64,000 bases of DNA from Limnochorda sp. L945t (GTDB lineage Bacteria > Bacillota > Limnochordia > Limnochordales > Geochordaceae), in assembly GCF_035593305.1 (NCBI RefSeq), contig NZ_CP141615.1, forward strand, positions 1,488,001 through 1,552,000. Direction: 5' to 3'. This document shows positions 27,389 to 60,293 of this stretch, piece by piece. The notes under the pieces are model-generated. The model had not been told where the DNA came from, did no database searches, and was given only the letters and a program-made list of their open reading frames with translations. The first letter of the stretch is position 1, and every line of letters begins with the position of its first letter. Both the position numbers and the translations under genes were made by a program.

Positions 27389-27426
27389 GGGCTGCGCGCA
27401 AAACTGCATAGAGCACTGGCCGTAGG

Positions 27427-29544
<2,118 letters not shown>

Positions 29545-29615: not shown

Positions 29616-29622
29616 CATGAAC

Positions 29623-29730
29623 GGCCACGAGGGGTGCGGCCGCCTGCAGTGGGCGGTCGCTGAGAGGGGCGCTCGAGGCGCCCCAACCCTTCGAACCTGA
29701 TCTGGGTCATACCAGCGTAGGGACGTGGGC
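29623..29730 (+). promoter_or_regulatory. Second TPP riboswitch, ahead of the thiD-thiM-thiE fusion
   Basis: Conserved GGGGTGC, GCTGAGAGG, a variable GGGCGCTCGAGGCGCCC arm, ACCCTTCGAACCTGATCTGG and the ACCAGCGTAGGGA element, closed by CCACG/CGTGG. This second aptamer sits inside the operon, between thiC and the fusion gene, so the two coding regions are sensed independently. Confidence 0.93.
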
Positions 29731-29773
29731 CGGTCGGTACGAGGACACGTGACGCCACGCGCGCGGTACGCCC

Positions 29774-45994: not shown

Positions 45995-46061
45995 AGGTAC
46001 CGTGGAGATCCAGCGGGAACCTCCCGGTGCCCGCAGCCACGTCCAAAGCCCGCCGCGCGCT

Positions 46062-46736
46062 TCAGAAGTCAATCGTGATGCTGGCCGAGAAACGGGCGCG
46101 CGGCTCGATGGGGTACCACACCCACGGCACGTGGTAACGGGCGGCGATGACCCGCCACCCGAGGCCTTGCGTGCGGAGGGCCACGACCCGCTCCACGCTC
46201 ACGTGGGCACGTTTCGCCACGTGGATGGCGAGGATGACGTCGTCGGGGCTCAGGCCCTGGTCGAGCCACACGACGACCTGGGTCCGCGGCACGGCGTAAT
46301 ATTCGTAGACAAACCGGACAAACGCCTCCCGCTCGACGCTCGCGTCGTCGACCACGACCACCGTCTTCTCCTTGGCCTTCCACTTGGGCCCCTTGCCGTG
46401 GCCCTGCCCGTGCACCCATCCCCATCCGCGGGCCTTCTGGATGGTGAGGACCCGCCGCACGGGAAGCTTCTCCTCCGCGGCCACGTAAATGGCGGTCAAC
46501 AGGCCGATGGGCCTCGGCTCTTCCTTCTCGAGCTCCACCATCACGTCATCGCCGAGCCCGAAATAGGCGCTCACCGACCCCAAGAGCAACGTCCGCGCCG
46601 CGTCCCGCTCCTCCGAGGTCAGGGTCACACTCACCCTCGCCGAAGCGGCGGCCGGCCCCGCCTGCACGGCGACGGCCGCCAGCGCGATGCCCGCCAGCGC
46701 GATGGCAAGCTGCCAGCGTCTCCAGGCCACGCACAC
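46062..46736 (-). CDS. Secreted hypothetical protein with an internal repeat
   Basis: 224 residues from GTG 46736, which has GGAGGT upstream; ATG 46754 is the alternative. A signal peptide (WQLAIALAGIALAAVAVQAGPAAASA) precedes a domain containing two related ~45-residue units: LLTAIYVAAEEKLPVRRVLT...GWGWVHG and VILAIHVAKRAHVSVERVVA...GLGWRVIAARYHVP. They share AIxVAxxxxxxVxRV and a later GWxW/GW motif. Similar repeats occur in secreted proteins of unknown function. The convergent cocE gene ends 68 bases away. Function unknown. Confidence 0.65.
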   Translation of the reverse strand: MCVAWRRWQLAIALAGIALAAVAVQAGPAAASARVSVTLTSEERDAARTLLLGSVSAYFGLGDDVMVELEKEEPRPIGLLTAIYVAAEEKLPVRRVLTIQKARGWGWVHGQGHGKGPKWKAKEKTVVVVDDASVEREAFVRFVYEYYAVPRTQVVVWLDQGLSPDDVILAIHVAKRAHVSVERVVALRTQGLGWRVIAARYHVPWVWYPIEPRARFSASITIDF

Positions 46737-46931
46737 CCGGCCAACCTCCTCCATGGTCCCTCTCCCCTCCCTGAGGCCCTACAGGCTATGGGTCTCACCA
46801 TGATACGTTCGCAGGCGCCGCCCGTTTGCTGGCCCGCCTCGTTCCCCGGATCGACCCGCGGCCGCCCGAAGGACAGCGCTGGTAATCACGGGCATAATCT
46901 GGTAGGCGGCAGGGCAGACTGCTTGCCGGCG

Positions 46932-48509
46932 ATGCGAGCACCGCGCACGTGGTTCCTGGGTCACCGGCGCCCTCGGGTCAAACCGGGCAGCCCGCCCTCG
47001 CCGGGACCCGTCACCGACTTCACGGGCAATGCCCAGGCCGACGCCGAGGCCATCGCCCGCCACCTGGGCCGGCCGGGAGACCTGCAGCGGCGCCTCTTGC
47101 CCCTGTCGCCCGGGCCCGGCCGATCGTCGCGCACCCTGCTCGTCCTGTACCTCGATAACCTGGTCAACGTGGCTCGCCTGGAACGGGCCGTCGTCCTGCC
47201 GCTGCTCGAAGGCCCACCGGGCGCCCTCGACCGCCCCGACGGGCTGCTCGGCGTCATCGCGGCCGCACACGTCCGCCTCGTTTCCACCGTGCCCGACGCT
47301 GCCACCCGGCTCATCCACGGGTGGGTCATGGTGCTCGGCGATGGCTGGCCTCAGGCCGCGGGCATCGAACTTCCCGACTGGCCCGGCCGCGCCGTCGACG
47401 AACCCCCGAGCGAGGTCGTCACCAAGGGGCCTCGCACCGGCTTCGTGGAGGAACTTCGCAAGAACCTCGCCCTGCTGCGCGTCACCTTCCCCACGCCCAA
47501 CCTGCGGGTCCAGCTCTTCAGCTGCGGCAAGGAGCCCGGGATCTCGGTGGCCATGGTCTGGATGGAAGGCCGCACCCCTCCGGAGCGGGTAGAGCGCGGC
47601 CGCATCCTGCTCGGCAGGTTGCACGACATCCTGGGGCCGGTCGACATCCAGACCGTCTCCGAGTTGGTGGGGCGGACGACCATGCGGGTCTTGCCGCTCT
47701 TCTTCCAAACAGAGCGCGTCGACCGCGTGGCGGCCGCCTTGCGGGAGGGGCGGATCGCCATCTTCGTCGACCGCTCCCCCTTCGCGCTGGTGGCCCCGAG
47801 CACGTTCTTCATGATGCTGACCTCGGCCGAGGACTACTACCAGCCGCCGGAGGTGGCCCTGGCGTTGCGGCTCACCCGGATGGTGGGCTTCCTGCTCGCC
47901 CTGGTCGCCACGCCGTTTTACATCGGGCTGGTCGGCTTCAACCCCGGAGTCCTGCCGACCCGGCTCGCCATGGCCGTGTCGGCCAGCCGTCAGGGCGTCC
48001 CTTACCCCGCCTGGATGGAAGCGCTCATCATGGAGCTCATGATGACCATCCTGGTCGAGGCGAGCGTCCGCTTGCCCCGCGCCATCGGCTCGGCGGCCAC
48101 CGTCGTGGGCGGCCTCATCATCGGCCAGGCGGCCGCACAGGCCTCCCTCATCTCCAACCTGATGATTATCGTCGTCGCAGTGTCGGCCATTACGTCGTTC
48201 GCCCTGCCCAACGTCGAAATCCTCTACGCCGTGCGGGTGATGAAGTGGCCGATGATGCTGGCCGCCGGATTGATGGGGCTCCCGGGGCTCTTCGTCGCGT
48301 TCGTGCTGATGACGATGTGGATGGCATCGCTCCGGTCGCTGGACGAGCCGTACCTGTACCCCATGGCGCCGTTCGAGGGGATCGCCGTCCTGCGGGATAC
48401 CCTGCTGCGGAGGCGCTGGGAGATCCTGCACCCGGGGCGGTACCGGCCACAGGTCCCGCCCTTCGACGCCGCGCCCACCCGGCCCGCGTCCGGTGAGGTC
48501 ACCCCATGA
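46932..48509 (+). CDS. Spore germination protein GerA family (GerAA-like)
   Basis: 525 residues. N-terminal cytoplasmic domain (about 50-275) with LLVLYLDNLVNVARLERAVVLPLLEGPP, FVEELRKNLALLRVTFPTPN and ILGPVDIQTVSELVG; then RIAIFVDRSPFALVAPSTFFMMLTSAEDYYQPPEVALALRLTRMVGF, the GerA landmark, and five to six membrane helices (VVGGLIIGQAAAQASLISNLM). It is the A subunit of a nutrient germinant receptor in the spore inner membrane. The ribosome site before ATG is weak and I could not find a convincing sigma-G promoter upstream. Confidence 0.92.
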   Translation: MRAPRTWFLGHRRPRVKPGSPPSPGPVTDFTGNAQADAEAIARHLGRPGDLQRRLLPLSPGPGRSSRTLLVLYLDNLVNVARLERAVVLPLLEGPPGALDRPDGLLGVIAAAHVRLVSTVPDAATRLIHGWVMVLGDGWPQAAGIELPDWPGRAVDEPPSEVVTKGPRTGFVEELRKNLALLRVTFPTPNLRVQLFSCGKEPGISVAMVWMEGRTPPERVERGRILLGRLHDILGPVDIQTVSELVGRTTMRVLPLFFQTERVDRVAAALREGRIAIFVDRSPFALVAPSTFFMMLTSAEDYYQPPEVALALRLTRMVGFLLALVATPFYIGLVGFNPGVLPTRLAMAVSASRQGVPYPAWMEALIMELMMTILVEASVRLPRAIGSAATVVGGLIIGQAAAQASLISNLMIIVVAVSAITSFALPNVEILYAVRVMKWPMMLAAGLMGLPGLFVAFVLMTMWMASLRSLDEPYLYPMAPFEGIAVLRDTLLRRRWEILHPGRYRPQVPPFDAAPTRPASGEVTP

Positions 48510-49630
48510 GCGAGGGCCAGCTGGCGGCCTGGGCGACCGTGGCAGGCCTGGGAGCTTCCCTTTTCCTGCCGGATCGCCTGATCGCCTGGATGGGGCCGGC
48601 CAGCTGGGTAGCCGCCCTCGTGGGGCTCGCCATCGCTACGTTGTGGCTGCTGGCCGCGTGGACGACCGGTCCGGCGCCCGCGACGCCCCTGCGGGCCGCG
48701 CCGTCGCCGGGGCCGGTGCGGGGCCTCGTGTTGGTGAGCGGCCTCCTTTCGGCCCTGTCGCTGGGCCTGACCTTGCTCCTGAGCATCGCCCACATGTCCG
48801 CCATCCTGCACGACACGGTGCTGGAGCTCACGCCCATTTGGGCGCTTCGGCTGCTCACGACGCTGCCCCTCCTGTACTCGCTGCTCCTCCCGCCGCAGGT
48901 GACCGCCTGGACGGCGCAGCTGTGGGGGTGGTTGCTCGTGCCGCTGCTCGTCTTCACGAGCATCAACTATGTCCGGCGGGGGGATTGGTCGTCGGTCGTC
49001 CGGCTGACCATGGAGTCGGTGGCACACTTCGCCCGCAGCCCCCGGGCGGCCCTCGGAGCCCTCATCCTCTTCTCCCTGCCTCTTGCCCTGGCATGGGTGT
49101 GGAGCCAGGGGCCCCGCGCGGGGCGACTACCGGCGCTGCCGCGCTGGTCGACGGTGGCCATGGTCGTCACCACCCTCGTCGTGGCCCTTCACACGGCGGT
49201 CCCCGTCGCCTACTTCGGGCCGGCGGTGGTGCGGACCATCCGAGATCCCTTCTTCGCGACCCTGGCCGTCACGACGGTACCGGGCCTGGGCAACCCTCGA
49301 GCCATCTACCTCTCGGGCCCGGGCTGGATGGTCGGCTTGCAGATGTACGGCGCCCTGATGGCCCACGCCGCCGCCGGCGCCCTTCAGGCGGCCTGGGGCA
49401 GGCCGTTGCCTACCATGCGCGCCGTCGTGGCGGCCTGGCTGGTGGCCGTGGCGTTCATCCCCCTCACCGAGTTCGCCCGGCTCGAGCTGGGGCCGCTGGC
49501 GGGCTTGCTCCTGGGCCTGGCCTCGTTGAGCTGGCTCGTGGCCCGCTGGGCAGGCCCCCTGCTCGGACGAGAGGGCTCCCGGCGATCGCCCGGCCCTGGC
49601 CCGGCGTCGGGCGAGGCGAAGGCCGGATGA
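48506..49630 (+). CDS. Spore germination permease-like protein (GerAB family)
   Basis: 374 residues, ten predicted helices (SEGQLAAWATVAGLGASLFLPDR start; LLSIAHMSAILHDTVLELTPIWALRLLTTLPLLYSLL; VPLLVFTSINYVRRGDWS). The GerAB/APC-type B subunit of the germinant receptor, which binds the nutrient ligand. Overlaps gerAA by ATGA. Divergent from Bacillus sequences, so identification rests partly on operon position. Confidence 0.82.
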   Translation: MSEGQLAAWATVAGLGASLFLPDRLIAWMGPASWVAALVGLAIATLWLLAAWTTGPAPATPLRAAPSPGPVRGLVLVSGLLSALSLGLTLLLSIAHMSAILHDTVLELTPIWALRLLTTLPLLYSLLLPPQVTAWTAQLWGWLLVPLLVFTSINYVRRGDWSSVVRLTMESVAHFARSPRAALGALILFSLPLALAWVWSQGPRAGRLPALPRWSTVAMVVTTLVVALHTAVPVAYFGPAVVRTIRDPFFATLAVTTVPGLGNPRAIYLSGPGWMVGLQMYGALMAHAAAGALQAAWGRPLPTMRAVVAAWLVAVAFIPLTEFARLELGPLAGLLLGLASLSWLVARWAGPLLGREGSRRSPGPGPASGEAKAG

Positions 49631-50847
49631 AGGTTCGGCGCGGCGCCCGGGGCACCCCCCTTCGCCGGGTCGCCCTCGGGTGCGCCCTCGCCTGGCTCGC
49701 GCTCGTCAGCGCGGGCTGCTGGGACTACACCGACATCGACCAGCGGTTCCACGTGACGGCGATGGGTTTCGACGCCGACCCGCGGGGTGTTCGGGTCTCG
49801 TTCCACCTGGGCAACCCTCCCCCGCAGGGCACTCCTGGCGGCGTGCGCGGGGGTGGAGGCGGCCCGGGGGCGGGCGGCGGAGGGGGAGGCCCATCGCCCC
49901 AGGGAGCCCAGGGCTTCCTGGTGTTGTCCGAAGCCGGCCCGAGCCCGCTCGACGCCATGGACTCCATCACCGGCCGCATCGACCGGGTGCTCGAGCCCGA
50001 CCACACCCAGGTCATCCTGCTGGGTCACGACCTCGCCCGGCAGGGGGTCCGGCCGGTGCTCGACTTCATCACGCGAGAACCCCGGGTGCCGCCCTCCCCT
50101 CCGGTCCTCATCACCGCCACGGGGACGGCCGAGCAGGCGCTGGCCACGCCCAAGCAGGGCACGTCGAGCCCGGGGGACTACTTCCTCAAACTCCTGACCA
50201 AGACGTCGGTCGGGACCCGGTGGTTGGAAGTGCCCGCCTTCGAGGCGTACCGCACGCTCTACGACCCCCTGCGCGCCCTGGCGCTGCCGGCAGTCGACCC
50301 GAAGAGCGGCCGGGTGGTGGGCATCGGGGTCTTCCGGGGCGACCGGCTGGCCGGCATCCTCGGGCCCGAGGACGCCTGGTCCCTGACCCTTCTCCGCCAG
50401 GGCGTCAAACCGGACGAGACCCGCGGCCTCACCGTGACCATTCCGGCGTCCGCCTCCTCCGGGCCCCCAGCCCGGCCGGCGAAGCTCGCCCTCTGGTTGA
50501 CCCGCTCCAGCATGCGGGTGGAGGCGGTAGGCGCCCTGGCGGTACGGATCTCGATCCGCCTCACGGCCCAGGTCGGGGAACTCTCCGGGGGGATTCGCCC
50601 GGACTTGCGCGACCCGTCGACCCGCGGCGCCGCCCAACGCGCCATCGCCGAAACGGTGCGCCGTCGCCTGACCGCGACGCTCGAGCGCCTGCAGCGCCGG
50701 GCCGTCGATCCGACGGGATTGGGCCTCCAGGTGTGGACGGCCTGCGGGCGCTGCTTCCCGCCGAGCGAGTACGTCCGGCGTTTCCCGTCGCTGCGGTTCG
50801 CCGTGCAGGTGGAGGCGACCATCCGTTCACCAGGCATGATCTGGTAA
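49627..50847 (+). CDS. Spore germination lipoprotein GerAC family
   Basis: 406 residues with lipobox LVSAGC (residues 27-32) followed by WDYTDIDQRFHVTAMGFD, the start of Ger(x)C proteins. Further matches are GFLVLSEAGPSPLDAMDSIT, RIDRVLEPDHTQVILLGHDLARQG, LDFITREPRVPPSPPVLITA and the C-terminal domain. A Gly-rich loop (GGVRGGGGGPGAGGGGGG, about residues 72-92) is inserted in the N-terminal domain, unusual for the family. Overlaps gerAB by ATGA; the three form a full ABC receptor operon. Confidence 0.9.
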   Translation: MKVRRGARGTPLRRVALGCALAWLALVSAGCWDYTDIDQRFHVTAMGFDADPRGVRVSFHLGNPPPQGTPGGVRGGGGGPGAGGGGGGPSPQGAQGFLVLSEAGPSPLDAMDSITGRIDRVLEPDHTQVILLGHDLARQGVRPVLDFITREPRVPPSPPVLITATGTAEQALATPKQGTSSPGDYFLKLLTKTSVGTRWLEVPAFEAYRTLYDPLRALALPAVDPKSGRVVGIGVFRGDRLAGILGPEDAWSLTLLRQGVKPDETRGLTVTIPASASSGPPARPAKLALWLTRSSMRVEAVGALAVRISIRLTAQVGELSGGIRPDLRDPSTRGAAQRAIAETVRRRLTATLERLQRRAVDPTGLGLQVWTACGRCFPPSEYVRRFPSLRFAVQVEATIRSPGMIW

Positions 50848-51008
50848 TGTGCCCGCTCCGTACCTCGGTCTCCATACGTTGACGGCTCTCAGAGGGCTCA
50901 CCTACCGTCGCAGCGCCCGGCCCGCGGGCGAAGTGCTGACGTCGGGCACTCCTGAGCTCGATCCCGGTCTCGATGCCAATCTCCCAGGGAGGAAGGGAAA
51001 GCTGCGAC

Positions 51009-52232
51009 ATGGTGGTCCGACTCTTTGCCCCGTCCCCGTTGCGTCGGTGGTCGTTGCGTCGGTGGTCGTTGGTCGTTGGGCGTTGGGCGTCGGGCTTCGT
51101 GGTGGTGGCGGCGGCGGTGGCCGTCGCGGTCACGGCCCTGGCAGCGCCTGCCGGCGCCCAGGAGGGGTGGACGGTGTGGGTCGCCCCGATGTACGGTGCG
51201 CTGAGCGGGGCGGACCTCCACATCCTCGATGAAGTCCTGGAGACCGTGACCACAGAAGGCCAGAACCTCACGTACTCTGCGCAAATCACCCCCCGGTGGT
51301 TTCGCCCGGGACCGACCCTCGTGCCGCGTCTCGGAGCGTCCGTGGGGATCAGCTCCCGCCTTTCGGTCGCAGCCGAGGGCTTGTTCCTCGGCTGGCACGA
51401 CTCCGCCACCCGGCGTTTCGAAGCCCCCGCAGACACCGCCACGACCGATTACGCCAACAGCGTGTTCCTGTGGGAAGGCAACTGGCGGCTGCCCGACCAG
51501 CGCGCGTTCGGACTGATCAACGTAACTCATCCGAGCGGCTGGTCCCCCATCGACTGGCATGCGGATGGGGCGATCCAGCTGGCCTCCGGCACCCTGGGCG
51601 CTCGAGCCCTGCTCTTCAACGGCGGCAACCTGCAGGTGGCGGCCGAAGGCGGCGTGGCCGTCTTCCACCTTGATCACCGGTTCGACCGGCGATGGGCCGG
51701 AGTGGCGGAATCGCCGGTAGATGCCAACGACAACGGTCGAATAGACCCGGAGCCCAGCCCCGACTATTATCTCCGCAACAACGTGTCGCTCGATCAGACA
51801 GCATCCAGCACCGGAACGGCGCTTGGCCCGTCCATGGGTCTCCGGCTGCAGGGCCGCCTCGGCGGTACGTACGTGGAAGCCTCGGCGTCTCAGGGATGGG
51901 CCTCGGGGCAGTTCGCGCTGGCCAGCCGCTTCGTGGACATAGACGACCAGTGGTTCGACGACAACCAGGACGGCACGTTCGATCGCAACGTCGTCCTCCA
52001 CGGCGACGTCCCGTTCCGCCAGCAGGTGCCCGCCACCATCCCGGTCACCCAGCTCCACGGCACGCTGCGCTACCCCCTCGGGCCGGTCAGCGTGGGCGCC
52101 GGCGTCTTCTACTCGCTCCACCGCAACGTCCCTGTCTCGCCGGAGCTGAGCTACCGGGACTACACCTTCAAGCCCCGCACCCAGGACATCTCCATCTCCG
52201 GCGCCATGGCGTTCGTGCAGGCCTCGTTCTGA
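51009..52232 (+). CDS. Predicted outer-membrane beta-barrel protein
   Basis: 407 residues. A long N-terminal signal region (WASGFVVVAAAVAVAVTALAAPAGA, cleavage near residue 50) is followed by alternating hydrophobic/polar strands (QEGWTVWVAPMYGALSG, LVPRLGASVGISSRLSVAAEGLFLG, GPSMGLRLQGRLGGTYVEASASQGWASG, LHGTLRYPLGPVSVGAGVFY) and ends DISISGAMAFVQASF, with a terminal Phe as in outer-membrane proteins recognised by BamA. Asp/Asn-rich turns (DANDNGRIDPEP, DDNQDGTFDRN) look like calcium-binding loops. A 15-bp tandem repeat lies in the signal-coding DNA. GGGAGGAAGGG precedes ATG. No named family recognised; an outer membrane is implied if correct. Confidence 0.6.
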   Translation: MVVRLFAPSPLRRWSLRRWSLVVGRWASGFVVVAAAVAVAVTALAAPAGAQEGWTVWVAPMYGALSGADLHILDEVLETVTTEGQNLTYSAQITPRWFRPGPTLVPRLGASVGISSRLSVAAEGLFLGWHDSATRRFEAPADTATTDYANSVFLWEGNWRLPDQRAFGLINVTHPSGWSPIDWHADGAIQLASGTLGARALLFNGGNLQVAAEGGVAVFHLDHRFDRRWAGVAESPVDANDNGRIDPEPSPDYYLRNNVSLDQTASSTGTALGPSMGLRLQGRLGGTYVEASASQGWASGQFALASRFVDIDDQWFDDNQDGTFDRNVVLHGDVPFRQQVPATIPVTQLHGTLRYPLGPVSVGAGVFYSLHRNVPVSPELSYRDYTFKPRTQDISISGAMAFVQASF

Positions 52233-52245
52233 CGCCGGGGGTGTT

Positions 52246-52281
52246 GCAGGAGGAGCGGCCTGTCCGGGCCGTTCCTCCTGC
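52246..52281 (+). terminator. Strong hairpin after the beta-barrel gene
   Basis: GCAGGAGGA-GC-GGCC pairs with GGCC-GT-TCCTCCTGC around a short TGTCC loop, 14 bases after the stop codon. No T run. Confidence 0.6.
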
Positions 52282-52316
52282 GGCCACGGACAACCATATC
52301 CTTCCATGGAGGACGG

Positions 52317-52334: not shown

Positions 52335-52373
52335 AAAATAAGGTAATGGCTATTGCTAACAGGAGGCGCGGCC

Positions 52374-53366
52374 GTGATCCAGATACTGCCTGCCCTCGAC
52401 GACGATCTGTTGCTCCATCTGTTCCGCAAAGGCTCCCGGATGGACTGGAACTCCGACGACTTCGACTGGCAGGCGTGGGAGGGCATCGGAGAGCCGCAAC
52501 GGCGCGCCGCCGCCCGGATCATCACCCCGGTCTACCTGGGCGAGCAAACGGCCATGCTCGGGGGCGCCGCCGCCCTCAAGGAGGTGGCCGCCGCCCACCA
52601 GACGTCCGCCCAGATCTACCTGGCGAGCTTCGTGATGGACGAGGCCCGCCACTTCGAGGCCATGACCCGCCTTTACCGGCAGCTCGGGTACGATCCCGTG
52701 GGCATCCGGGAGATGCCCGAGATGCTGCGCTACCACCACCGGCTGCGCCAGGGGGACAAGCTCGACTGGGCGTGGGGCATCCTCATCAGCGACGTCTTTG
52801 CCCGCCACTTCTACCACGCCCTCATCGACCGCTTCCCCTCGACGATCCTCGGCAGCCTCTCGCAGCGCATCGTGGTCGACGAAGGCCGCCACCAGGCCTT
52901 CGCACAGGAGTACATCCGCCGGGCGCTGCCGGCCCTCGGCCCCGAACGCCGCCGCGCGCTCCTCTCCATGCGCGACGACCTGCTGCGCCTCATCAGCACC
53001 ATGCAGCGCCGCCTGGCGCCGGACGGCGACGTCCTCGGCATCGACACCCGCCGCCTCGTGGACGACTTCGCCTCCGAGATCGAGGAGCGCACCCACCGCC
53101 TCGGCCTCCCCTCCAGCCGCCCTGGCGAGCCGCCGGCACCGCCCCCGTCCCGTGCCACCGGTGGGGAGCCTTTGTCCAACGCCGCCGCCGAGAGGGTGCC
53201 GCCCACCTCCCCGGCGCGGCCCGCGGCAGGCTCCGATGGCCCCCGCCGGCCTCCGTCCGAACGCACGTACCGGGGTCCCGTCCGCCTGGTCACCCGCTGC
53301 GCCGGCTGCCTGCTGGCCCTGTGGTGCCGCCCGGCCCGGCCTCACCCGGCCCCGGCGCCGTCCTGA
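52374..53366 (+). CDS. Ferritin-like di-iron (R2/AurF-like) protein with Pro-rich tail
   Basis: 330 residues. Helical core to about residue 245 with carboxylate/His ligands as in ribonucleotide reductase R2-like proteins: Glu57 in YLGEQTAM, D89-E90-xx-H93 in VMDEARHFEA, and D169-E170-xx-H173 in VVDEGRHQAF. Where a second-helix Glu is usual the sequence reads ISDVFARHFY (Asp140). This suggests an oxygen-using oxidase rather than a storage ferritin. The last ~85 residues are Pro/Arg-rich with a lone CAGC pair and a hydrophobic stretch. GTG 52374 has a consensus AGGAGG upstream. Confidence 0.75.
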   Translation: MIQILPALDDDLLLHLFRKGSRMDWNSDDFDWQAWEGIGEPQRRAAARIITPVYLGEQTAMLGGAAALKEVAAAHQTSAQIYLASFVMDEARHFEAMTRLYRQLGYDPVGIREMPEMLRYHHRLRQGDKLDWAWGILISDVFARHFYHALIDRFPSTILGSLSQRIVVDEGRHQAFAQEYIRRALPALGPERRRALLSMRDDLLRLISTMQRRLAPDGDVLGIDTRRLVDDFASEIEERTHRLGLPSSRPGEPPAPPPSRATGGEPLSNAAAERVPPTSPARPAAGSDGPRRPPSERTYRGPVRLVTRCAGCLLALWCRPARPHPAPAPS

Positions 53367-55703: not shown

Positions 55704-57467
55704 TCACCGGGCGAGGGGCACGCCCCGGTCCACGTAGTGGGTGTGCAGCAGTTGGTGGCTGCGGGCGCTTCCCGGCGAGCCGAGGTACTCCTGATACACC
55801 GCCCGGATCTCGGGGTTCTCGTGGGCCCGGCGGAGCGGGCTTGTCCGGTCGAGCCCGGCCAGCGACTGCGCCCGGCGCTCCACTCTCGCGACCAGGTCCT
55901 GCCCGCGCATCTGGCCGCCGCCTCCCACGCACCCGCCGGGGCACGCCATCACCTCGACGAAGTCGAGCTGCTCGTACTCCGGGCTCTCGAGCAGCTCCCG
56001 GGCCGCCTTCAAACCGTCCACGACCGCGCACCGCAGCACCCGTGAGCCGAGCTCGACCCGCAGCCGCCGGATCTGCCCCGCCCGGTGCAGCTCCTCCCAC
56101 TCGAGCTTCTCCTCCGGCAAGTCCTTCCCGGTCGCCATCCAGTAGGCGGTGCGCAGCGCTGCCTCGGCCACGCCGCCCGTACGCCCGAAGATGACCGCCG
56201 CGCCCGTGGAGGCGCCCATCAGCGGGTCGAAGGCCTCCGGCTCCAGGCGGGTCGGGTCGATCCCGGCCAAGCGCAGCATCCGCACCAGCTCCCGGGTGGT
56301 GAGCACCAGGTCGACCGACCCCTGGAGCTCCTCCCGCTGCGCCTCGAACTTCTTGGCCGTGCACGGCATGATGGAGACCATCACCACGTGCGAGGGATCG
56401 AGCCCCTCCTTCTCGGCGTAGTAGGTCTTGGCCAGCGCCCCGACCATCTCGTGCGGGGAGCGGCAGCTCGACAGGTGCCCGAGCCGCTCGGGGAAGTAGT
56501 GCTCCACGTACTTGACCCAGCCCGGGCAGCACGACGTCATGAGCGGAAGGGGCGCCTGTTCCCTGGGAGCGGCCAGCCGGTGCACGAGCTCGGCCGCCTC
56601 CTCCATCACCGTCAGGTCCGCACCGAAGTCCGTGTCGAACACCCTGGAGAACCCCAGCCGCCGCAGCGCCGCCACGATCTGCCCGGTGATGGGCGTGCCG
56701 ACCGGTGCGCCGAACGCCTCGGCCACCGAGACGCGCACGGCCGGCGCGATCTGCACCACCACGGTCGTATCCGGGCGTCCCAGAAGTTCCCAGGCGCGCC
56801 CCGTGTCGTCCCGCTCCGTGAGCGCACCCGTCGGGCAGTGCACCACGCACTGGCCGCAGTACACGCACGCCGCCTCGGAAAGCGGCGCCTTGAAGGCGGG
56901 CGCGACCCCCAGGTCGAAACCCCGCCCGGTAAAGTCGATGGCCCCTATCCCCTGCTGCTCCTGGCAGATTCGCACGCACCGCCCGCACAGGATGCACTTG
57001 GCCGCGTCCCGTACGATCGAGGGGCTCGAGACATCGGGCTCCTCCTTCAGCGCCCGCCGGTGGACGCCGTCGGCCCACAGCCCGACCCTGGCGCCGTAGC
57101 GCGCCGCCAGGCTCCTGAGCCCGCAGTCGTCGGAACGCAGGCACGACGCGCACTCCTGCGGGTGGTCGGCGAGCAGCAGCTCCAGCACCTGCCGGCGGGC
57201 CTTGTGGACCGCCGGCGTGTGGGTGCGTACCACCATACCCTCGCTCACCGGCTGGGAGCAGGCGGTGACCAGCGTCCGAGCCCCGCTCACCTCGACCACG
57301 CACAGGCGGCACCCGCCAAAGGGCGCGAGCCCCTCGAGGTGGCACAGGGTCGGCACCTCGTAACCCGCCTGGCGCAGGGCCTCGAGTAAGGTCTGGCCCT
57401 GGCGCGCCTCGACGAGGCGCCCGTCGACGGTCAGCCGGACGGTTGGCTTGTCGCTCGCAGCCGTCAT
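55704..57467 (-). CDS. hydA: [FeFe] hydrogenase catalytic subunit, group A (NAD-linked)
   Basis: 587 residues. An N-terminal plant-type [2Fe-2S] domain (CHLEGLAPFGGCRLC, about 42-56), a His/Cys [4Fe-4S] site (HPQECASCLRSDDC), a two-cluster ferredoxin (CILCGRCVRIC, CVYCGQCVVHC) and the H-cluster motifs TSCCPGWVKYVE (L1), IMPCTAKKFEAQ (L2) and VMACPGGCVGGGGQ (L3). It reduces protons or oxidises H2 in the cytoplasm as part of a HydABC-type complex coupling NADH and ferredoxin. The maturases HydE, HydF and HydG are not in the window. GGAGGTGGCGTGAG precedes ATG, one base after the upstream gene. Confidence 0.97.
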   Translation of the reverse strand: MTAASDKPTVRLTVDGRLVEARQGQTLLEALRQAGYEVPTLCHLEGLAPFGGCRLCVVEVSGARTLVTACSQPVSEGMVVRTHTPAVHKARRQVLELLLADHPQECASCLRSDDCGLRSLAARYGARVGLWADGVHRRALKEEPDVSSPSIVRDAAKCILCGRCVRICQEQQGIGAIDFTGRGFDLGVAPAFKAPLSEAACVYCGQCVVHCPTGALTERDDTGRAWELLGRPDTTVVVQIAPAVRVSVAEAFGAPVGTPITGQIVAALRRLGFSRVFDTDFGADLTVMEEAAELVHRLAAPREQAPLPLMTSCCPGWVKYVEHYFPERLGHLSSCRSPHEMVGALAKTYYAEKEGLDPSHVVMVSIMPCTAKKFEAQREELQGSVDLVLTTRELVRMLRLAGIDPTRLEPEAFDPLMGASTGAAVIFGRTGGVAEAALRTAYWMATGKDLPEEKLEWEELHRAGQIRRLRVELGSRVLRCAVVDGLKAARELLESPEYEQLDFVEVMACPGGCVGGGGQMRGQDLVARVERRAQSLAGLDRTSPLRRAHENPEIRAVYQEYLGSPGSARSHQLLHTHYVDRGVPLAR

Positions 57468-57468
57468 C

Positions 57469-59415
57469 TCACGCCACCTCCACCGCGCCGAACCGGCAGA
57501 CCTCCACGCACGTCCCGCACCGGATGCACCGTTCGTCGAGGATGGTGTACGGCTGGCGCTTCTCGCCCACGATCGCTTCCTGCAGGCAGCTGCGGGCACA
57601 CACCCCGCATCCCGGGCAGAGTGCCGGATTGATGCGGTAAGTGAGGTACGGCCCGCAGCGGCGGGCAGGGCAGCGCCCCTCCACCAGGTGGGCCACGTAC
57701 TCGTCCCGGAAGTAGCGCAGCGTGCTCAGCACCGGGTTGGCCGCCGTTTGGCCGAGCCCGCAGGCGGCGGTCATCTTGAGCAGCGTGCCCAGGCTCTCGA
57801 TCTCGTCCAGGATGGCCTCGGCCTCCTGCCGGGAGACCCGCTTCGGCCGCCCGCCCGGCGGGCTGACGATCCGCTCGAGCATCTCGTGCAGCCGGGTCGT
57901 CCCCTCCCGGCACGGCACGCACTTGCCGCACGACTCGTGGCGCAGGAAGTCGAGGAAGAACCGGGCCACGTCGACCATACACTTCGACGAGTCCATGACG
58001 ACGAGCCCGCCCGAACCCATGATGGCTCCCGTCGTCATCAGCGACTCGTAGTCGATGGGCGTGTCGAGCAGGCTTTCGGGCAGGCACCCGCCCGACGGCC
58101 CGCCGATCTGGGCCGCCTTGAAGTGGCGCCCGTCCCGGATCCCGCCGCCGACCTCGTAGACGATCTCGCGCAGGGTAACGCCCATCGGCACCTCGATGAG
58201 ACCGCTGTTGACCACGTCGCCCGTCAGGGCGAACACCTTGGTGCCTTTGGACGTGGCGGTGCCGATGCTGCGGAACCAGTCGGCCCCTCGCTCGATGATC
58301 GCCGGCACGTTGGCCAGCGTCTCCACGTTGTTGATGACCGTGGGATGGGCCCACAGCCCGGAAACCACCGGATACGGCGGGCGAGGACGGGGCATGCCCC
58401 GGCGGCCCTCCACCGAAGCGAGCAGCGCCGTCTCCTCGCCGCACACGAACGCTCCGGCGCCGATCTTGACCTCGATGGTAAACTCGAAGTCGCTCCCGAG
58501 GATGCGCCGCCCCAGGAAGTTGTACTCCTCGGCCTGCAGGATGGCTTTCTGGATACGCTCGACCGCGAGAGGATACTCGGCTCGCACGTAGATGTAGCCG
58601 TGCCTCGCCCCGATGGCGTAGGCGGCCAGCGCCATCCCCTCGAGCACCCGGTGCGGGTCACCCTCGAGCACGCTCCGATCCATGAACGCTCCAGGGTCGC
58701 CCTCGTCAGCATTGCACACGACGTAGCGCTCCGGGTCCGGCTGCTGCGAGGCCATCCGCCACTTGCGCCCGGTGGGGAAGCCGGCACCCCCCCGGCCCCG
58801 CAGGTCGGAGCGCTCGATCTCGGCGAGGACCTGCTCCGGGGTCATGGAACGCAGGGCCTTCTCCAGCGCCCGGTAGCCGCCCGCCGCGACGTACTCGTCG
58901 ATGCGGGTCGGGTCGATGCGCCCGCAGTTGGCGAGCACGATGCGCTGCTGCTTCTGCATGAGAGGGAGCTGATCCACCCGGGGCAGCACCTGCACGCAGG
59001 CAGCGGCCGCCGGTGCACCGGCGGCCCTGGCTTCGGCGTTGCCGGCCTCCCGGCCGTTGCCCCGGCCTGCTGCCGGGCCTCGCTCCACGGGGGCCTCCAC
59101 GTCTCCGGGTGGCTCGCCCAGAGCGACCCCCACCAGGAGATCCTCCGGCACGACACCGTGCACCACGTACCGGTCGACCAGCCGCCGGGCGGCGTCAGGG
59201 CTCACGGGGCCGAAAGTCAAGGTCGCCGCCCCCGGGCGCCGGACGTCCACCAGCACTTCTCGCTCGCACAGTCCCATGCACCCGACGCGGCGCACGGTGG
59301 CGGACACCCCGGCCTCCTGCAGCGCCTGCTGGAGGGCCTCGATGACCCGCTCGGCGCCGGCGGCCAGCCCGCAGCTGCCCGCGCCCACGCGGACTTCCAC
59401 CGGTGCGTCAGTCAC
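57469..59415 (-). CDS. hydB: Hydrogenase diaphorase subunit (NuoF-like, HydB)
   Basis: 648 residues. A thioredoxin-like [2Fe-2S] domain (GSCGLAAGAERV ... GCMGLCEREV) leads into the NuoF core: NADH/FMN motif SDLRGRGGAGFPTGRKWRMA, NADEGDPGAFMDRSVLEGDP, the cluster motif HESCGKCVPCREGTTR and LGQTAANPVLSTL. A C-terminal 2x[4Fe-4S] domain (CPGCGVCARSC, CIRCGTCVEVC) is characteristic of electron-bifurcating hydrogenases. The linker at 110-145 is Ala/Gly-rich. Lies between hydC (8-base overlap) and hydA. Confidence 0.96.
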   Translation of the reverse strand: MTDAPVEVRVGAGSCGLAAGAERVIEALQQALQEAGVSATVRRVGCMGLCEREVLVDVRRPGAATLTFGPVSPDAARRLVDRYVVHGVVPEDLLVGVALGEPPGDVEAPVERGPAAGRGNGREAGNAEARAAGAPAAAACVQVLPRVDQLPLMQKQQRIVLANCGRIDPTRIDEYVAAGGYRALEKALRSMTPEQVLAEIERSDLRGRGGAGFPTGRKWRMASQQPDPERYVVCNADEGDPGAFMDRSVLEGDPHRVLEGMALAAYAIGARHGYIYVRAEYPLAVERIQKAILQAEEYNFLGRRILGSDFEFTIEVKIGAGAFVCGEETALLASVEGRRGMPRPRPPYPVVSGLWAHPTVINNVETLANVPAIIERGADWFRSIGTATSKGTKVFALTGDVVNSGLIEVPMGVTLREIVYEVGGGIRDGRHFKAAQIGGPSGGCLPESLLDTPIDYESLMTTGAIMGSGGLVVMDSSKCMVDVARFFLDFLRHESCGKCVPCREGTTRLHEMLERIVSPPGGRPKRVSRQEAEAILDEIESLGTLLKMTAACGLGQTAANPVLSTLRYFRDEYVAHLVEGRCPARRCGPYLTYRINPALCPGCGVCARSCLQEAIVGEKRQPYTILDERCIRCGTCVEVCRFGAVEVA

Positions 59416-59971
59416 GCTTCTCGCTCCTCTCGAGGCGGCGCAGCAACCGGACGACCTCCTGGCGGCTCATCCTGCCGTGGATCTCGCCGTCCGCCACCAC
59501 GACCGGAGCGCGGCTGCAGCACCCGAGGCATGCGACCGTCTCCAGCGAGAACTCCCCATCGGGCGTGGTTTCGCCGGCCCGGATGCCCAGGGTCTGCTCC
59601 ACGTAGTCCAGCAGCCCCGCCGAACCCCTCACGTGGCAGGCCGTGCCCCGGCATACCCGAAGGGTGTGCCTGCCGGGGGGCTGGAGGCGGAAGAAGTTGT
59701 AAAACGTGGCGACGCCGTACGCCTGGGCGAGGCTCATCTCGCACTGCTCGGCCGCCTTCGCGATCTCCTGGCGCGGGAGATACCCGTACTGCTCCTGGAT
59801 GCTCTGCAACATGGGAATGATGTTGGGCCGCGTGGGGGTGCTCGCACTCGCCAGCCACCGGGCACGGCGGGTGGTCGCCGGCCCACGCGAGGCCGTGGAC
59901 CGCCCGTGCTCCGTCGCGCTGCGCCGGGAGGGCCCTGACGAGGACCTTGCATCCCTGGGTTGGACCGCCAC
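59408..59971 (-). CDS. hydC: Hydrogenase subunit with [2Fe-2S] cluster (NuoE-like, HydC)
   Basis: 187 residues. Residues 45-185 are NuoE: IIPMLQSIQEQYGYLPRQEI, YGVATFYNFFRLQPPGRHTLRVCRGTACHVRG and TVACLGCCSRAPVVVADGE provide the four cysteines of a thioredoxin-like [2Fe-2S] fold. The first ~40 residues are Arg/Ser/Ala-rich and not conserved. GTG 59971 lies seven bases after GAGGAGG; another GTG at 59977 sits too close to that site. First gene of the hydrogenase operon. Confidence 0.93.
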   Translation of the reverse strand: MAVQPRDARSSSGPSRRSATEHGRSTASRGPATTRRARWLASASTPTRPNIIPMLQSIQEQYGYLPRQEIAKAAEQCEMSLAQAYGVATFYNFFRLQPPGRHTLRVCRGTACHVRGSAGLLDYVEQTLGIRAGETTPDGEFSLETVACLGCCSRAPVVVADGEIHGRMSRQEVVRLLRRLERSEKRD

Positions 59972-60293
59972 ACCCACACCTCCTCGGTGATGTGCCCGTG
60001 ACCACTTTCACGATACGCCCCTTCGATCGTCACCTTTTCCGCACCACGGCGGCCATTGACAGATGTCCCTACGCGCCTGGGATGATCGTCATCCCGCCGG
60101 GATCGTTTTCGGCCCTCCGCTCCCTTTCGCCCGCGAACCGTCCCCGGGCCGTGACGCCTTGCCCCGCCCGCGCCGTGCGGTGGCCCCCGGGCCCTTACCC
60201 GATCGTCGTTCCCTCTGAGCGGCCGGACAGGGAACCCACGCTCCGCGCCGAAGGGACCGGTCCCAGCACAACGCCTTGGGAGGTTTTCGGCAG
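59972..60293. other. Divergent intergenic region, no gene seen
   Basis: 322 bases between the hydrogenase operon (minus) and the aldo/keto reductase (plus). It must hold both promoters, but I see no clear -35/-10 pair and no strong inverted repeat. Confidence 0.4.

Follow-up and report, generated by a model that had tools for sequence, protein, structure and literature searches.

The window, as we call the whole 64,000-nucleotide stretch of DNA analyzed here, carries on its forward strand a set of spore germination genes followed by a gene that very probably, given its predicted structure, encodes a genuine outer membrane beta-barrel protein. The germination genes comprise a GerAA-like germinant receptor subunit (46002..48509, PF03323 at 3e-124, with the true start further in), a weakly matched GerAB-like permease (48506..49630, TIGR00912 at E 0.026 and no Pfam match), and a GerAC-like lipoprotein whose start is approximate (49600..50847, PF25198 at 6e-27 and PF05504 at 6e-12). 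These matches bear out the GerA receptor noted in the initial annotation of this DNA, which had read the adjoining barrel as a sign of a spore-former with an outer membrane. Opposite the gerAA open frame, on the reverse strand, is a secreted-looking protein of 230 aa with no Pfam match (46062-46754). The barrel gene lies on the same strand as gerAC, with 161 bp separating the gerAC stop from the ATG at 51009, and a scan of this gap found no terminator-like or sigma70-like site, an absence that says little.

We assign the barrel gene to 51009..52232 on the forward strand. Its open frame (50973-52232) begins at an earlier ATG, from which it would encode 419 aa, as compared with 407 aa from the ATG at 51009. 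The latter, which agrees with the coordinates of the initial annotation, is the likelier start; it is preceded by a purine-rich stretch (50986..50997, forward strand) that, as we read the sequence, may be a ribosome-binding site, although with rather long spacing. The G+C content of the frame by codon position (0.67/0.52/0.85) is that of a coding sequence, and a scan of the whole window with Rfam at the gathering score gave nothing at the barrel gene. An antisense frame of 469 aa (50898-52307) also stays open in this G+C-rich genome and might be taken for the real gene, leaving the barrel frame spurious. The forward frame, however, is kept in homologs from 2 classes, and both codon bias and the AlphaFold2 model agree with it, so that we consider the antisense reading exceedingly improbable. 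Contamination was likewise considered as a source of the gene and rejected, since all 3 barrel copies lie on the single 3,313,549-base contig that makes up the genome, and contamination is put at 0.45%.

Elsewhere in the window, Rfam identified one tRNA and, at the gathering score, 2 TPP riboswitches about 2 kb apart (27423-27533 and 29620-29740). The frame at 52353-53366 appears from our own reading to encode a ferritin-like diiron protein, whose similarity to the R2-like ligand-binding oxidase and AurF families is weak and stays below threshold. At 55707-59977 are genes for an [FeFe] hydrogenase with NuoE/NuoF-type subunits, and their content suggests that this enzyme is perhaps trimeric and bifurcating.

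The N-terminus of the barrel protein is a hydrophobic stretch that reads as a signal peptide (51009..51158), with cleavage expected between AGA and QEGW. The mature protein of 357 aa (51159..52229) contains no cysteine and ends in VQASF (52215..52229), an outer membrane protein-type last strand with a final Phe. This terminal Phe is found in all 7 aligned sequences, the window protein and 6 homologs, of which 2 (L053 and L055) entered the alignment without their N-termini. In the mature protein, the beta-type hydrophobic moment averages 1.06, compared to 0.79 (sd 0.06) for shuffled sequences; 1 of 2000 shuffles had as high a mean, and 4 of 2000 had as high a share of strongly amphipathic segments (moment above 1.6). 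The signal-peptide-like start, amphipathic strands, and terminal Phe on which the initial annotation had built its proposal thus all stand. The alignment has 14 invariant columns, occupied solely by W, P, G, A, Y, and F. With no acid, base, or nucleophile among them, these columns fit a conserved scaffold and do not fit the active site of an enzyme.

Structure modeling depended on the depth of the alignment. With 3 sequences, the best AlphaFold2 model had a pLDDT of 68.9 (range of 26-69 over 5 models), and with 7 sequences it reached a pLDDT of 81.2 and a pTM of 0.76 (range of 66-81 over 5 models). The latter model is an all-beta barrel, in agreement with the barrel fold that had been anticipated from sequence, and DSSP divides it into 13 strand pieces. 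By our count, these correspond to 10 membrane strands and 5 outer loops, with the first loop, L1, including a small hairpin; this count treats the short turns at 126-129, 217-219, 297-298, and 370-371 (numbering of the 419-aa frame) as periplasmic. Loop L2 is predicted with low confidence, with block means of 56-66.

The best fold match to the model is Legionella porin I (9nh1_C, Z of 22.4), which aligns over 241 of 357 residues at 2.9 A and runs from the first to the last residue. Global TM-scores from Foldseek for chain 9nh1_A are modest, 0.49 by query and 0.66 by target. OpcA follows, with a Z of 20.0 over 204 residues at 3.9 A for 2vdf and of 18.9 over 217 residues at 3.0 A for 1k24, and the omptins are found at a Z of 17.9-19.2 over 216-240 residues at 3.8-6.7 A, after which the list falls to a designed barrel at a Z of 12.6. 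We drew on the first 10 rows of this list and cite the lower ones solely for the drop. OpcA and the omptins are 10-stranded barrels. Since OpcA, an adhesin, and the omptins, which are proteases, also resemble the model strongly, the fold cannot by itself decide the function.

Two paralogs, with 52% and 42% identity to the window protein, occur in the same genome. One of them, L005, has ROK regulator and ABC solute-binding protein genes as neighbors, and the other, L004, has a chemotaxis receptor and an IS110-type transposase (L013:8709-10190). In a draw of 398 genomes from the phylum, a profile of the 3 paralogs recovered the genome itself and a single relative, in genome G157. Once this relative had been added as a fourth row, the profile found the family in 3 of 17 genomes of the class of G157 (G157, G294, and G404), with 2 neighboring copies of a distant relative, L054 and L055, on contig 89 of G404, and in 2 of 72 genomes of the class of the window, namely the genome itself and a metagenome-assembled genome (MAG) of the same species, Bu05, whose copy is broken. 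The barrel had been proposed as a marker of a deep diderm lineage, which with this distribution it is not. Searches of genome contigs with the single protein gave 23 stretches, none of which was confirmed, and searches with the alignment gave one locus, on contig JADBKR010000004.1 of Bu05. Phages and plasmids had no tblastn match to the barrel at E up to 0.01, and 6 pattern stretches found in viral contigs were not related to it.

The known family to which these sequences lead is Legionella_OMP (PF05150, gathering score of 25.4 bits). Its cut-off is exceeded by 3 of the relatives, L007 (27.7 bits, 1.7e-6), L054 (30.0 bits, 3.2e-7), and L055 (30.3 bits, 2.6e-7), while L053 (22.9 bits, 4.8e-5) and the paralog L004 (11.4 bits, 0.16) fall under it. 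Neither the window protein, at E up to 10, nor L005 has any match to PF05150. In a single comparison, the window protein and L007 share 23% identity over 219 residues (E of 3e-10). Through these intermediates and the predicted fold, we regard the window protein as a distant relative of Legionella_OMP, one that is related to the family and would work like it; we do not call it a member since it does not reach the PF05150 cut-off. The window protein alone gave nothing above threshold in Pfam, NCBIfam, or PHROGs and nothing in the PDB by sequence, and OpcA was not found at E up to 10 with either the sequence or the profile. The 7-row profile drew 2 fungal protease sequences from the PDB at 0.05-0.06, which were taken as chance. 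Among the 7 members, NCBIfam gave weak matches to 5 outer membrane protein families, one member each, with a best value of 0.017, and Pfam gave sub-threshold matches to general outer membrane barrels in L053, L054, and L055.

From this combination of fold and family, we think it probable that the protein is a divergent Legionella MOMP-like porin, a small outer membrane pore of general or semi-selective type that is accessory to the cell and not a component of germination, and for which we infer pore activity. The signal peptide would direct export of the protein by Sec, and the BamA of this genome would insert the barrel into the outer membrane by way of the C-terminal strand with its final Phe. 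There, the 10 long strands and 5 external loops would form a small pore in the style of the Legionella major outer membrane protein. The likeness to 9nh1 is one of fold, and the link to PF05150 is a separate one that passes through the profile matches of relatives. The window protein shares its barrel and C-terminal Phe with the Legionella porin, but it is larger than 9nh1 (357 versus 256-265 residues) and has a long L2. Lpg1974, a Legionella protein of PF05150, is described as a voltage-dependent outer membrane pore in PMC10967727, which cites Younas 2018. Against a pore, the window protein itself matches neither PF05150 nor any porin profile, and barrels of 10 strands can be shut by side chains.

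Another possibility is that the protein is an OpcA-like surface adhesin or structural outer membrane protein, whose 10 strands enclose no useful pore and whose loops attach to the S-layer or to some ligand at the surface. OpcA is second in the fold list, through 2vdf, with the omptins level within 1 Z, and a family that is accessory and duplicated would suit such a role. Against this, the Legionella porin is the better structural match, and the family cut-off that the relatives pass is that of Legionella_OMP and not of any adhesin. We consider an adhesin unlikely, though a serious candidate. A protease of the omptin type would also be compatible with the fold list. OpcA and the omptins superpose well on the barrel model, but with 8-13% identity and no omptin or OpcA profile match; a search for the omptin profile at E up to 10 listed GEVED as its sole entry. 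Omptins carry a catalytic Asp/His set, and D, E, H, and S occupy none of the 14 columns invariant across the 7 sequences. We consider a protease most improbable.

The outer loops offer a further view of the small porin that we favor. The core of L2, running into strand 4 (VTHPSGWSPIDWHAD, 51522..51566), is identical at 11 of 15 positions among the 3 paralogs, a segment that was chosen by eye once the alignment had been seen. The whole of L2 is identical at 19 of 43 positions, which can be compared with 6 of 11 for strand 2, 12 of 22 for strand 9, and 10 of 22 for strand 10. Strand 3 is identical at only 2 of 20 positions and L3 at 1 of 15, and L5 is identical at 3 of 4. Conservation of an outer loop to the degree of the best strands hints at a site of constriction or ligand binding, and in a pore, L2 (with HPSGWSPIDW) may fold over or into the lumen. 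The low model confidence of L2, and the similar conservation of strands 2, 9, and 10 to L2 taken whole, count against this. The conservation of the L2 core and L5 would serve an adhesin as well. Two other loops contain acidic motifs resembling calcium-binding loops, DxNxNGxxD in L3 (51720..51746) and DxNxDGxxD in L4 (51957..51983), which were found by a pattern scan that carried no chance control. The L4 motif is found in the window protein alone among the 7 sequences, and its region gave the GEVED match, which is sub-threshold (0.031). A motif similar to that of L3 occurs in L005, and the same scan found no calcium-type motif in L004 or the 4 distant relatives, so that calcium would be a private trait. 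The motifs may bind calcium and thereby stiffen the mouth of the barrel, and such loops would also suit a surface role of the adhesin kind.

An alternative that takes the position of the gene into account is a germination-linked porin, transcribed by read-through from gerA, located in the outer membrane of the spore, and admitting germinants. The shared strand, the 161-bp distance behind gerAC, and the gap with no detected terminator-like or sigma70-like site favor this reading. Both intact paralogs, however, adjoin other genes, ROK/ABC in one case and IS110/chemotaxis receptor in the other. Three further gerA loci were raised by DNA similarity and opened: L064, the second of this genome; L065, the apparent Bu05 counterpart; and L063, in a genome of the same family. 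At each of these, GerAA and GerAC were found by BLASTP, and no barrel was found by BLASTP at E up to 1e-4, nor did any picked ORF end in Phe. The search of the class also found no barrel of this family in the genome that holds L063. The paralog neighborhoods and the 3 gerA loci thus show no constant partnership of barrel and gerA. The initial annotation was right about the position of the barrel next to a germination operon, but the operon seems to have no part in the identity of the barrel, and their adjacency looks incidental. We consider a germination porin very unlikely. The broader proposition, that diderm spores own an outer membrane across which a porin read through from gerA passes germinants in an arrangement with no monoderm counterpart, strikes us as highly improbable.

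Comparison with Bu05 bears on whether the family is dispensable. According to PMC11456536, which further on names Bu05 as C. subterranea, Bu05 and L945T are apparently one species, and the L945 genome is closed. The genome of the window, a single contig of this species, is very likely that of Carboxydochorda subterranea L945. The sole family copy in Bu05 is the ortholog of L005, the third barrel gene, and it has an internal gap in which 700 bp are missing (L014:10127-10826 versus L015:17617-17618) between flanks that are about 98% identical; the region around this gene is also about 98% identical in Bu05. Since the gapped copy is all that Bu05 has, the cell can do without the family, unless this part of the MAG is incomplete or wrongly assembled. 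The 40 kb of the window from 24001 to 64000 have no orthologous stretch in Bu05 among the candidates scored (the best 40 of 448 and the best 40 of 296), where about 1.05 kb was the greatest length of a match, at 65%, and those reaching at least 89% were shorter than 45 bases. This missing stretch may reflect a strain difference, such as an island, or a gap in the MAG. Overall, the barrel family looks like a small, dispensable, duplicated, and accessory one.

Genes for outer membrane biogenesis in this genome include BamA with POTRA domains, TamB, OmpH/Skp, LptF/G, and the flagellar P-ring and L-ring proteins FlgI and FlgH, together with 8 matches to TolC-type proteins. For lipid A, we found LpxC, LpxI, an LpxA-type acyltransferase, a FabA/FabZ-type dehydratase, and, on our own reading, an LpxD-like sequence. 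LptD appears to be represented by a divergent protein (L011:13350-15743) that adjoins LptF. It matches 13 PDB sequences at E up to 10, of which 12 bear the name LptD and the remaining one is called "LPS biosynthesis protein," with a best value of 3.8e-5 and matches that span some 40-170 residues, bar one C-terminal stretch. The NCBIfam match to LptD (1.7e-11) is far below the cut-off, and the Pfam LptD profile PF04453 had no match in this genome; this profile matched just 2 of 14 control genomes, versus 7 of 14 for Omp85. The gene set of an LPS-type diderm (BamA, LptD, LpxC, TolC-type, Skp, and TamB) is therefore present, with LptD assigned by weak but consistent matches, and the Bam and Lpt genes that the initial annotation had proposed looking for do exist.

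The same proposal included OmpM, an SLH-tethered porin of diderm Firmicutes. A candidate of 630 aa could be located (L038:6547-8436), which on our own reading begins like an SLH domain and finishes in NLRF, but it is a weak one since it has no Pfam match and its only profile match is to the NCBIfam SomB-porin at 0.011. The window protein resembles OmpM in being an outer membrane barrel of a diderm of the Bacillota, the setting in which PMC10628300 places OmpM, and differs from it in having no SLH domain, with the 3 SLH matches of the genome lying elsewhere.

The lpx, lptF/G, skp, bamA, tamB, flgH, and flgI genes lie near spoIIID and a gene whose product partly matches the SpoIVB protease (L011 and L012, G000:C1:2713001-2753000). 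The SpoIIID match (5e-41) is at L012:14310-14567, close to this outer membrane cluster, and the SpoIVB-protease match (L012:5848-7947) is partial, at 1.5e-11, with an NCBIfam value of 1.9e-13 that is far below the cut-off. From gene content, SpoIIID and the GerA genes suggest that this strain forms spores. Limnochorda pilosa is reportedly called a "Gram-negative spore-former" in a 2016 title by Watanabe. It is counted as sporulating in PMC7924749, which also remarks that sporulation genes are missing. The words "endospore," "sporulation," and "germination" are absent from the main text of PMC11456536, where the 2 instances of "spore" belong to the reference list.

Published TEM of strain L945 shows an outer membrane (PMC11456536), in line with the gene set. 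The same paper presents Limnochorda pilosa, Geochorda, and Carboxydochorda as Limnochordia with diderm envelopes as well. The inference of a diderm cell in the initial annotation is right and already published. Citing Taib 2020, PMC11456536 relates that the Limnochordia have been used in arguing for a two-membrane ancestor of the Firmicutes, and the other 2 diderm groups are treated in PMC5007114. What the present analysis contributes here is a gene-by-gene confirmation of much of the outer membrane equipment in a cultured species of Limnochordia, and the barrel itself leaves the view of the lineage unchanged. It is one more divergent relative of the Legionella-type porins in the Bacillota, and its distribution, which is patchy, duplicated, spread over 2 classes, and broken in the sister MAG, seems that of an accessory protein of the cell surface, as opposed to a marker of ancestry.
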